A stretch of 64,000 bases of DNA from DHVE2 group archaeon. GTDB lineage: Archaea > Thermoplasmatota > Thermoplasmata > Thermoplasmatales > Aciduliprofundaceae. Of the stretch, positions 44,113 through 47,786 are shown piece after piece. Below the pieces are notes generated by a model, which was not told where the DNA came from, ran no database searches, and saw only the letters and a list, made by a program, of their open reading frames with translations. The translations under genes were made by a program, and so were the position numbers. Location: contig JALWRZ010000010.1 in the NCBI GenBank assembly GCA_026993785.1, positions 1 to 64,000 on the forward strand, written 5' to 3'. Positions within the stretch are counted from its first letter, which is position 1; each line of letters starts with the position of its first letter.

Positions 44113-45165
44113 TCAGGAGACTATGGAGATAAGATTCTCTATCTCGTTTGTGCTCTCCATAATTCCCGCGCTTCTTCTGGGCATGTAGGGGGTGTGCACT
44201 CCTGTGAGTATCGTGGTGATCTTGAGCTTCTTGGTGTATGAGCTATCTATTCTCGCTCCTATTTTAACCTCCGCATCTTCTCTTATCCCTGAGGTTATGC
44301 CCTCGGCAATCCTGTATACTGTTTGAAGCGACATATCCTTGCCTCCGGTTATGTGAATCAAAGCTCCGCTGGCACCGCGATAATCTATGTCCATGAGGGG
44401 ATTGTTGAGGGTATCCATCACAGCGTCCTGTGGTGTGTAATAATTTCCCTCCCCATACAGGATCGTGGAAGTTCCACCGTTTCTCATTATCGCCTGTAGG
44501 TCGGAGAAATCTATGTTCATCATGGATGGCAGAGTAACAGTCTCCGCCAGATTTTTTATCACATCTCCAATCAGGTAATCCATGATGGCAAATGCCTTGA
44601 GAATTGGCAGCTTGGGCGCCAGCTCAATGAGTCTATTATTATCAAGAACTATAAGGGTGTTGGAGTTCTCTCTGAACTTTTCAAGCGAGGCCTCGGCTAT
44701 GCTCCATCTTTTCTTCCCCTCCGCCTTGAAGGGCATGGTCACCATGGATACCACGAGAGCCCCCGTCTCTTTGGCTATCTCGTTTATAACTGGTCCTGCA
44801 CCGCTTCCAGTGCCTCCACCAAGCCCTGCGAGGGTGAAAATCAAATCTGCACCATCAAGAATGTTATAGATTTCCCTCGCTGCAAGCTGTGCCACCTGCT
44901 CACCTATCTCGGGATTACCTCCTGTCCCGTGGCCGTTGGTAACCTTCTCTCCCAGCAGCACCTTCTTGTGTGCGTTCACGATGGAGAAATGCGTTTTATC
45001 CGTATTGATGGCGATGAGCTCTGCATTTATCCTCTGCTTGCTCAGCCTCGTTATACTATTGCAGCCTCCGCCACCTATACCTACCACCTTTATTCTTATA
45101 CCGCTTTCCACCTTCCTCTCATAATCGAGAGATAAGGCATCCTTAACAAGATATTCCAATCCCAT
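44113..45165 (-). CDS. ftsZ: Cell-division GTPase FtsZ
   Basis: 350 residues. 'KVVGIGGGGCNSITRL' near 26 and the tubulin-signature 'LAGLGGGTGSGAGP' near 113 bind GTP; 'FSDLQAIMRNGG' near 220 and 'ALIHITGG' near 275 belong to the C-terminal domain. It polymerises at the division site. There is no long unstructured tail beyond 'NLISIVS'. I start at 45165 because GGTGATGG is just upstream; the longer frame would include the promoter palindromes. It has its own regulated promoter, see the operators at 45182-45218. Confidence 0.95.
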   Translation of the reverse strand: MGLEYLVKDALSLDYERKVESGIRIKVVGIGGGGCNSITRLSKQRINAELIAINTDKTHFSIVNAHKKVLLGEKVTNGHGTGGNPEIGEQVAQLAAREIYNILDGADLIFTLAGLGGGTGSGAGPVINEIAKETGALVVSMVTMPFKAEGKKRWSIAEASLEKFRENSNTLIVLDNNRLIELAPKLPILKAFAIMDYLIGDVIKNLAETVTLPSMMNIDFSDLQAIMRNGGTSTILYGEGNYYTPQDAVMDTLNNPLMDIDYRGASGALIHITGGKDMSLQTVYRIAEGITSGIREDAEVKIGARIDSSYTKKLKITTILTGVHTPYMPRRSAGIMESTNEIENLISIVS

Positions 45166-45181
45166 GACCATCACCTGACTA

Positions 45182-45192
45182 TTGTCTGACAA
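45182..45192 (-). promoter_or_regulatory. GTCNGAC palindrome 1 in the ftsZ promoter
   Basis: TTGTC-T-GACAA, a perfect 5-1-5 inverted repeat between the ftsZ start and the larger palindrome at 45200-45218. The two share the core TGTCNGACA, and their centres are 22 bp apart, about two helical turns. Confidence 0.6.
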
Positions 45193-45199
45193 ATTAATG

Positions 45200-45218
45200 A
45201 TATATGTCCGACATATAT
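45200..45218 (-). promoter_or_regulatory. GTCNGAC palindrome 2 overlapping the ftsZ TATA box
   Basis: ATATATGTC-C-GACATATAT, a perfect 9-1-9 inverted repeat. On the minus strand it overlaps the probable TATA element (TTTATATATG), so protein bound here would compete with TBP. It is a strong repressor-site candidate. Confidence 0.7.
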
Positions 45219-45235
45219 AAATCTTTCGCAGAAAA

Positions 45236-46819
45236 TTACCTATGGGCATGAAAGAACTCTATGGCCTCGCCCAAAAGCTCTCTGGCCTCATCTATCCTGG
45301 AGAAAGGTCTCTCCCGGACTATCCTTGCAGCTTTTTTCTCGCCGATCCCCGGCAGGGAGCGAAGCACGGAGAAGGGTGTGGTGTTGATATCCAGAGGATA
45401 TTCCGCTGCCGTCACACTTCGCTCTCCATAATCGAAGACCTTAACATCCACAAACCTGCCTATCTTCGCTTTATAGGGGAGAACTACGATTAGGGGATAG
45501 CTGCCTATCTGCCTTCCAAAGGTATAGTTGCCCTTATTCAGCTCGAGATATACATTCCTCAGAACCGTGCCCTTAGGCACGATTTTCTCAAGCATTTTTC
45601 TATCTATCTCCTTTCTCACCCTTTCCCGGAATTTCCAGCATTCGTGCCTGTATTTAAGGGTAAACCTACCCCTTATGGAGGCTACCTGCCTTATGTTTAT
45701 TCTCCTTAGCAGATAGCCTCGATTCATAACTTTCTTGAGAAACTTGAAATTTAGGTGATAGGTTTCCTTTCTCTCGCCCCTGAGCCCGCAGATGAAGTTC
45801 AGTCCAGGAAGAAGTTTTGGCATGCCGTTCTCTCCCCGCCCCCCACCAATTTCATTCACGATTCTTATGGCCTCCATAACATCTTCAGGCGTGGCATTGA
45901 GATTGTTTTTCTTAATAACCTCGGGATCCGCAGATTCCATTCCGAAGGCAACCACATTGCCGGGGGTGGTGTACCTCACTATTATCTCAGTTATCTTCTC
46001 TGCCTTTTCGGGATACGTAGCTATAACTGCGGGATTGGCGTTATCCACATGCAGCACCCTATGCGGCACGGAGCTTAACCCCTTAAACAGATTTGCGAGG
46101 GCATCGACATTGGGCTCCACCACCTCCTTTATTCCAACTCCATGAGCCTTGTAGGAGTATATACAGCTCTGCCCTCCTATGCGGAAATTGCGAACTCCCA
46201 GCTCGCTGAGAATTCTCACCTCTTCTATTATGTCCTTCTCCTCCCGAAATATGGGCTTTCCATATAGTGGCTCGATGCAGAAGGAGCATCCCCCGGAGAT
46301 GTAGCGGGGACAGCCCCGGAAGGTTTCAATCTCTACAATCAGGTAATCGGGAAAATTTGGGTGCTGACGCACCACTTCCGCGCCCAATTTAAGCCAGCGA
46401 TTCCATTCCTCTAAGGTATGAAATCTATCGCCCTGATAATTTTCCGTGAGTATATCATAAAGAAGCGCGTCCACATCCTTCCTCGCAGAATAATCGGCAT
46501 TGAGCTTCATCAATCCGAACCTGGCGATGCCGCCACCCACTACCTTGATGCCCCTGAAAGAATCAAGGATCTCACTTATCTCCCTGGCAGAAGCAGGATA
46601 CGTGCTCAGATATCTTCCGGGAACCACCGCACCGCCTATCAAAACGAGAATATCACCCCTTATCCTTCTTCCTCTTCTCCACTCATCGATGGTCATATAT
46701 TCATAGGGGATTTCAAGCTCCCTGCAAACACCGGCAACTTCCCGAACGTAGGGAGAGATGTAGGGAGGCACACCCAGTATCGTGGGCTCGTCCACATAGC
46801 CATCAAGGATAGTGATCAT
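45236..46819 (-). CDS. Radical SAM protein with C-terminal helix-hairpin-helix
   Basis: About 527 residues. The N-terminal 'ITILDGYVDEPTILGVPPY' region precedes a B12-binding-like fold. The cluster motif is 'GCPRYISGGCSFC' near 178, a C-x7-C-x2-C rather than the usual C-x3-C-x2-C. A TRAM-like beta domain lies near 420-470, then a helix-hairpin-helix 'LRSLPGIGEKKAARIVRE' near 490. The whole resembles the archaeal YgiQ/UPF0313-like family; the substrate is probably tRNA or another nucleic acid, judging by TRAM and HhH. A TTTTAAAG box near 46843-46850 supports leaderless start 46819. Confidence 0.8.
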   Translation of the reverse strand: MITILDGYVDEPTILGVPPYISPYVREVAGVCRELEIPYEYMTIDEWRRGRRIRGDILVLIGGAVVPGRYLSTYPASAREISEILDSFRGIKVVGGGIARFGLMKLNADYSARKDVDALLYDILTENYQGDRFHTLEEWNRWLKLGAEVVRQHPNFPDYLIVEIETFRGCPRYISGGCSFCIEPLYGKPIFREEKDIIEEVRILSELGVRNFRIGGQSCIYSYKAHGVGIKEVVEPNVDALANLFKGLSSVPHRVLHVDNANPAVIATYPEKAEKITEIIVRYTTPGNVVAFGMESADPEVIKKNNLNATPEDVMEAIRIVNEIGGGRGENGMPKLLPGLNFICGLRGERKETYHLNFKFLKKVMNRGYLLRRINIRQVASIRGRFTLKYRHECWKFRERVRKEIDRKMLEKIVPKGTVLRNVYLELNKGNYTFGRQIGSYPLIVVLPYKAKIGRFVDVKVFDYGERSVTAAEYPLDINTTPFSVLRSLPGIGEKKAARIVRERPFSRIDEARELLGEAIEFFHAHR

Positions 46820-46863
46820 CCTACCTATCAATGCACACATCCTTTAAAACCTTACTCCGGGAA

Positions 46864-46876
46864 TTCGTCAGACGAA
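46864..46876. promoter_or_regulatory. GTCNGAC palindrome 3 between the radical SAM gene and xerA
   Basis: TTCGTC-A-GACGAA, a perfect 6-1-6 inverted repeat with the same GTCNGAC core as the two ftsZ sites. It lies between two divergent promoters. A further related sequence (ATATCTGACATAT) begins near 46915 at the xerA start. Confidence 0.6.
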
Positions 46877-46928
46877 AAGTGAAATTTTTTGCAAAACATT
46901 TAAATATTTTCCATCATATATCTGACAT

Positions 46929-47786
46929 ATGGCTGACAGAGAATGGGGCAGTTATCTTCAAAAGGAAATTATGGAGTATCGAAGATATCTGGAGGGGGAG
47001 AGGAGGAGCGAGAATACCATAGCTGAGTACATCTATTTTGTGGAGGATATGTTTCGTCATATTAAGAAGAGGGCCGAGGATATAACGATTCAGGATCTTA
47101 AAAGATACAAGCTATACCTTTCCACCAGGAAAAGATACTCCAAGAATTCGTTGTATCTTGCGATTCAGGCCATAAGGGCATATTTCAAATATAAGGGGCT
47201 GAACACCGCGAAGGAGCTAAGTGCTCCTAGAAGACCCAAGCAGATGCCCAAGTATCTCACAGAGGATGAGGTGAGGAAGCTTCTATCTGCCACCAGAGAC
47301 AATCCCAGAGATTACGCCATTCTCTCATTCCTGGCATATTCTGGGCTAAGGGTGAGCGAGCTCTGCAATCTCAAGCTGGAGGATGTGGATTTTCAGGAGC
47401 GTGTTGTGAGGGTAAGGAGCGGTAAAGGGGATAAGGATCGCATAGTGGTGATAAGCCCTCGCGCTGTGGAGGCTCTCCAGGAGTATATTAATACACGGGA
47501 TGATTCACTTGAATATCTTTTTGCATCAAGAAAGAGTGAAAGAATATCTCGGGTTCATGTGTTCCGCATCGTTAGAAAATACGCCAAGAAAGCAGGGATA
47601 AAGAAGGACGTGACCCCCCATGTTCTTCGGCATACCCTTGCCACAACGCTCCTTAAAAGAGGTGTGGATATAAGGTACATCCAGCAGTTTCTGGGACATA
47701 GCAGCGTTGCCACAACGCAGATTTACACTCATGTTAACGATGAGATGCTCAAATCCGTCTACGATAAGGTCTTGCAGGAATACTGA
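46929..47786 (+). CDS. xerA: Tyrosine recombinase XerA
   Basis: 285 residues. An N-terminal SAM-like DNA-binding domain ('EYRRYLEGERRSENTIAEY', about 15-35) is followed by the catalytic domain with Arg in 'SGLRVSELCNLKLEDVD' near 142, Lys in 'GKGDKDR', 'TPHVLRHTLATTLL' (H-x-x-R), 'LGHSSVATTQIYTHV' and the nucleophile Tyr in the latter. It resolves chromosome dimers at dif in archaea. A TATA-like ATTTAAATATTTT near 46897-46909 predicts a leaderless ATG at 46929. Its end overlaps the convergent geranylgeranyl reductase gene by 38 bp. Confidence 0.93.
   Translation: MADREWGSYLQKEIMEYRRYLEGERRSENTIAEYIYFVEDMFRHIKKRAEDITIQDLKRYKLYLSTRKRYSKNSLYLAIQAIRAYFKYKGLNTAKELSAPRRPKQMPKYLTEDEVRKLLSATRDNPRDYAILSFLAYSGLRVSELCNLKLEDVDFQERVVRVRSGKGDKDRIVVISPRAVEALQEYINTRDDSLEYLFASRKSERISRVHVFRIVRKYAKKAGIKKDVTPHVLRHTLATTLLKRGVDIRYIQQFLGHSSVATTQIYTHVNDEMLKSVYDKVLQEY

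Follow-up and report, generated by a model that had tools for sequence, protein, structure and literature searches.

The window analyzed here is the whole 64-kb stretch of DHVE2 archaeal DNA, and in its second half it carries an ftsZ gene and a xerA gene, the latter with a radical SAM gene as its neighbor (Table 1). The first-pass annotation had reported three perfect palindromes at the promoters of these genes, and we found all three as described, namely operators 1 and 2 at ftsZ and the upstream site at xerA. GTCNGAC occurs three times in the window against 5.9 expected, which is not an unusual number; what is unusual is the placement, since all three copies fall within the two promoter regions.

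Table 1. Genes, promoter elements and predicted operators discussed in the text (positions refer to the window except for the RHH gene; G000 is the genome of this study).
Feature	Position	Strand	Evidence or remark
ftsZ, RHH-associated lineage, 350 aa, starts MGLEYLVK	44113-45165	-	Pfam Tubulin and FtsZ_C; TIGR00065; trees
Predicted operator 2, TTGTCTGACAA	45182-45192, core 45183-45191	.	At predicted transcription start
Predicted operator 1, ATATATGTCCGACATATAT	45200-45218, core 45205-45213	.	Overlaps ftsZ TATA box; in relatives L011-L015, L025, L026, L028
ftsZ TATA box TTTATATA	45214-45221	-	Sequence
Upstream element GGTAATTTT	45232-45240	-	Also upstream of ftsZ in several relatives
Predicted xerA upstream operator TTCGTCAGACGAA	46864-46876	.	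Exact TGTCAGACA at same distance in G001 and G006
xerA TATA box TTTAAATA	46899-46906	+	Sequence
Predicted xerA operator TATCTGACA, 1 mismatch	46919-46927	.	24 nt from TATA start
Predicted xerA operator TGGCTGACA, 1 mismatch	46930-46938	.	Overlaps ATG start codon; 11 bp from TATCTGACA site
xerA, archaeal tyrosine recombinase, 285 aa	46929-47786	+	NCBIfam NF040815 recomb_XerA_Arch
Tandem RHH gene, 116 aa	G000:C3:207668-208015, outside window		Directly upstream of ftsZ

We examined the identity of the two division and segregation proteins by profile searches and trees. The window FtsZ scored 321.8 bits against TIGR00065 (cut-off 295.2), and XerA scored 312.4 bits against NF040815 (cut-off 220). 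The closest relatives of the window ftsZ are found in Aciduliprofundum/DHVE2-type Thermoplasmata. There are five FtsZ genes in the 1.66-Mb genome (on C2, C3, C7 and C10), three of them FtsZ1-like and two divergent and RHH-associated. In the trees the three slow-evolving copies grouped with Methanocaldococcus FtsZ1, and the window FtsZ was placed apart from them with the RHH-adjacent FtsZ proteins (support for the split branch 100/100). The sites do lie at an ftsZ, as the first-pass annotation had it, but judged by these relationships this is not the canonical gene; it is a member of the divergent RHH-associated lineage. FtsZ2 has been described as the RHH-associated lineage (PMC9871819), which makes the window gene a probable duplicate within the FtsZ2 lineage, an assignment that rests on RHH synteny (PMC9871819).

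At the ftsZ promoter, where operator 1 covers part of the minus-strand TATA box (read from 45221 to 45214), the centers of operators 2 and 1 are 22 bp apart, a spacing that recurs in other promoters. Comparison of the ftsZ upstream regions in close relatives indicated that the region with both sites is conserved: genera g1, g3 and g5 have two sites, g2 has a single one, a site is likewise present in family f4, and operator 2 is kept in the host-family genomes with a readable upstream region. The element GGTAATTTT is located ∼10 nt upstream of BRE/TATA. In an 800-kb sample, its only occurrences at such a distance from a non-coding TATA box were at three regulon promoters, the one in the window and those at G000:C2:48279 and G000:C9:12785; it is possibly the site of a second factor.

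At xerA, a sequence that had been taken for a half-site is indeed related to the motif, but it consists of two single-mismatch sites. A site with no more than one mismatch is present at the xerA promoter or start in 16/16 host-family genomes, and exact copies are carried by xerA in the complete relatives G007 and G009, in good agreement with the idea of a regulatory site shared between ftsZ and xerA. The palindrome at 46864-46876 had been attributed jointly to the radical SAM gene and xerA. We assigned it to xerA because the exact TGTCAGACA is found at -64/-65 in two relatives with different upstream neighbors. As the site follows xerA while the upstream neighbors differ in relatives, inclusion of the radical SAM gene among the targets is unsupported, and this gene is a probable bystander.

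Next, we surveyed the genome for the exact form of the motif, TGTCNGACA, and found 10 sites, of which eight were located by inspection at promoters or start codons, in line with the earlier expectation of a higher frequency in promoters than elsewhere. The carriers are the window ftsZ (two sites), the 116-aa tandem RHH gene that precedes a second ftsZ, smc, a gene for a 280-aa membrane protein divergent from smc, and genes for a 64-aa and a 118-aa protein; the remaining sites are at a promoter convergent with rfcL, inside a gene, and at the 3' end of a recombinase gene. In a ∼800-kb sample (about half of the genome, taken as stretches) with ORF-based masking, 5/10 motif copies were non-coding compared with 0/3 for the reversed control, in a genome that is ∼10% non-coding. 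A TATA box stood at the right distance for half of the exact sites, and other arrangements of the same letters gave 0 to 2 (∼800 kb); this TATA-anchored counting replaced a distance-to-start test, for which the longest-ORF starts were too poor. When palindromes were screened across the genome for enrichment in non-coding DNA, A+T-rich words dominated the list and the motif could not be ranked; TGTCNGACA totals in relatives exceeded the control only modestly. Motif number therefore tells nothing, and the decision rests on placement and orthology. In G007 and G009 the site is carried by largely the same genes as in this genome, and conservation in relatives excludes chance as the origin of the sites.

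The gene set originally proposed, ftsZ and xerA, stands but proved too narrow: it also takes in the RHH gene with its ftsZ, smc and several other genes, and it extends across the class. The operator was looked for and found to be absent at sepF and at the three FtsZ1-like (canonical) ftsZ genes of this genome, which were rejected as targets, and the regulon here therefore leaves part of the division apparatus outside. The gene rfcL was also rejected, because the operator belongs to the convergent promoter, which drives a 37-40-aa ORF in G007 and G009. The same promoter and its operators remain in this genome, and the small ORF is missing there (loci compared: L079 2031, L069, L010).

To place the motif in the class Thermoplasmata, every palindrome with 4-bp arms and a gap of 0-7 was ranked in upstream regions from ∼15 families, and TGTC-N-GACA held the top rank for the RHH gene as well as for smc. 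YGTCNGACR was found upstream of the RHH gene at 28/28 loci (1.2 expected) and upstream of smc in 18 of 27 genomes (0.7 expected), the strict site being absent from the other nine smc regions tested; two control palindromes gave zero in both cases. Sites were spaced by 22 bp in 22 promoters, 11 bp in seven, 44 bp in five and 55 bp in five, and the spacing set comprised 121 sites vs. 4.4 in shuffles. Many of the genomes compared are related, so these counts are not independent and it is the spread over many families that carries weight. When site pairs 22 bp apart were searched for blindly in 200 class genomes, 95 had them, and the reversed pattern was found in two. We inspected 50 double-site loci (30 listed and 20 picked because the gene was not yet known), and the downstream gene was RHH-ftsZ, ftsZ or smc at 49 of them; the loci from family f12 were four canonical-type ftsZ and three smc. 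With such specificity, the two-site form can serve to locate this regulon in genomes of uncultured organisms. Among the genomes listed, the double site was absent from 27/27 members of family f6, and no site was found upstream of the RHH gene in G022, G025, G035 and G073, which have no close FtsZ. Taken at the level of genome comparison, the element is conserved across the class, and the same comparisons establish a predicted operator, its placement, its spacing and its gene set.

The lone exception among the inspected loci (L327 1501-1654, in G052) consists of two double-operator arrays ∼100 bp apart beside a putative membrane-protein gene, with no ftsZ, smc or RHH gene in the vicinity.

The RHH gene upstream of the second ftsZ encodes a protein with two RHH-like halves, which scored 39.6 bits against Pfam RHH_1 (cut-off 20.5) in two stretches. 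Its best NCBIfam match, again in two stretches, is CdrS NF058555 (51.4 bits, E 7.8e-14). CdrS of haloarchaea, named as a precedent in the first-pass annotation, was the appropriate one. The score is below the equivalog cut-off of 100 bits, and the 116-aa protein exceeds the single-RHH size of the 61-position model. The N-terminal half keeps R6, T8 and R10, and such an alternating residue pattern is expected of the DNA-reading strand in RHH proteins. The protein is present in 103/120 class genomes with ftsZ directly downstream in many, and the CdrS-like order of RHH then ftsZ on the same strand was found in G000, G007, G020, G043, G106 and others. The constant autoregulatory sites and the linkage to ftsZ make this protein the leading regulator candidate. 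Seven RHH_1 genes are present in the genome and another RHH_1 protein could in principle bind the operator; most likely, the reader of the operator is this CdrS relative, which would also regulate itself. That it controls this regulon, either by repression or by activating or dual action, we consider highly probable.

In the mechanism that we propose, YGTCNGACR would be the operator of the tandem RHH regulator encoded directly upstream of ftsZ, with TGTCNGACA as its best form. RHH copies would bind cooperatively on one DNA face at a spacing of whole helical turns (11, 22, 44 or 55 bp) and cover the TATA box and the start site, which would keep TBP/TFB or RNA polymerase from being recruited. 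Repression would thus act on the operon of the regulator itself and on the window ftsZ, smc, xerA and a few other genes, and genes of division and chromosome segregation would switch together. The sites overlap the TATA box and the start site, which speaks for repression, as a protein bound at a promoter or downstream of it usually inhibits (PMC8406309). We infer that the RHH protein is the binder, that it represses, and that it responds to a cell-cycle or growth-linked signal. The whole repression model, from binding and autorepression to co-regulation of ftsZ, smc and xerA, appears to us somewhat more probable than its alternatives together. The earlier suggestion of one regulator coordinating division with segregation gains support from the regulon recovered by comparative genomics, with the RHH protein as its presumptive regulator.

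The direction of regulation is uncertain because Haloferax CdrS sites are mostly 41-110 nt upstream of the start site, unlike the sites here, which overlap the core promoter, and because CdrS appears to activate ftsZ1; those positions are consistent with activation, and Haloferax ftsZ1 falls on cdrS repression (PMC8406309). The same RHH protein could therefore serve the same regulon as an activator or dual regulator, like haloarchaeal CdrS at ftsZ. Some sites, such as 46864-46876 for xerA, are indeed upstream of the TATA box, and GGTAATTTT provides a second upstream element at three regulon promoters. However, most sites overlap the TATA box or start site, where binding normally blocks archaeal initiation, and we regard activation or dual control as unlikely, although it is the strongest rival of repression. 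It is less probable still that this regulon exists under another transcription factor, which binds TGTCNGACA and has the RHH gene as just one of several targets. Six other RHH_1 genes and HTH proteins in the genome would offer such a factor, but no gene carries the site more constantly than the RHH gene, which encodes a DNA-binding protein beside ftsZ, the usual signature of autoregulation, and where a close FtsZ is missing (four genomes) the RHH gene has no site.

RHH proteins such as SegB bind segregation sites (PMC12284271), and with smc and xerA in the gene set the palindromes might be partition or division-site landmarks (centromere-like sites of a SegB/ParG-type RHH protein, or XerA/dif-like recombination sites) instead of operators. 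We consider this very improbable: the sites are few, located at promoters at a fixed distance from TATA, and follow their genes into new neighborhoods, whereas a dif site is expected once per chromosome. A general core-promoter or initiator element of the group, which could account for the frequent overlap with the start site, has practically no chance and is refuted by the rarity of the site (10 exact copies in 1.66 Mb vs. 613 non-coding TATA-like stretches in half of the genome) and by canonical ftsZ and sepF promoters that lack it.

The repression model resembles the CdrS system of haloarchaea (NF058555) in the RHH regulator gene immediately upstream of ftsZ, in a palindromic motif (known in vivo in haloarchaea, here from sequence only) and in division genes among the targets, and cdrS-ftsZ2 synteny is reported to extend across Euryarchaeota (PMC7439475 and PMC8406309). 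It differs in the tandem architecture of the protein and its sub-threshold CdrS score. The accessible text of the same two papers contains no mention of this operator sequence, helical arrays, autoregulatory sites or smc/xerA targets. Another RHH cell-cycle regulator, aCcr1 of Sulfolobales, is reported to repress cdvA in division and segAB in segregation (Yang et al. 2023, cited in PMC12796447 and PMC12284271), but the division machinery there is ESCRT. CdrL of Halobacteria, likewise of the RHH type, controls the cdrS-ftsZ2 operon directly; unlike the protein described here, it is reported to be restricted to Halobacteria and to have a C-terminal double zinc ribbon (PMC7439475), while the RHH-ftsZ operon of this genome bears an operator itself, with no further RHH gene beside it. 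In the literature searched (subscription papers being outside its scope), no description of the motif or regulon in Thermoplasmata was found.

To our knowledge, transcriptional control of division is known in few archaea only, through CdrS in haloarchaea and aCcr1 in Sulfolobales. We are evenly divided on whether the tandem RHH protein would be a class-wide, self-regulated master switch of the archaeal cell cycle, one that recognizes TGTCNGACA arrays in helical phase and sets a common timing for Z-ring assembly (ftsZ), chromosome organization (smc), dimer resolution (xerA) and unstudied small and membrane proteins. If so, these small and membrane proteins would be candidates for new division factors. 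For a large class of archaea, the analysis spells out the operator sequence, names a candidate regulator and lists the targets; it brings ftsZ, smc and xerA together under a single site and marks the uncharacterized genes as candidate division or segregation factors. The 280-aa membrane protein divergent from smc (L001 1681-2523), with an operator in its promoter and no Pfam or NCBIfam match, is one such candidate.

Three further observations were made. A conserved small protein of ∼64 aa (EVERWLKNHTVEDLEAALWELKGK), without a family match, is encoded under the operator (L006 1538-1729, L068, L077). In several families, a shared leader with a GGATGGGATGCAC-like sequence lies between the operator and the smc start (L168-L173, L175, L178, L183, L186, L187), and the smc leader gave no Rfam family match. 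In other classes of the phylum, the RHH genes L268, L276 and L277 carry related variant palindromes (CGTCAGACA, and TGTCAGGCA- and TGCCTGACA-like), which suggests that the operator may be drifting across the phylum.
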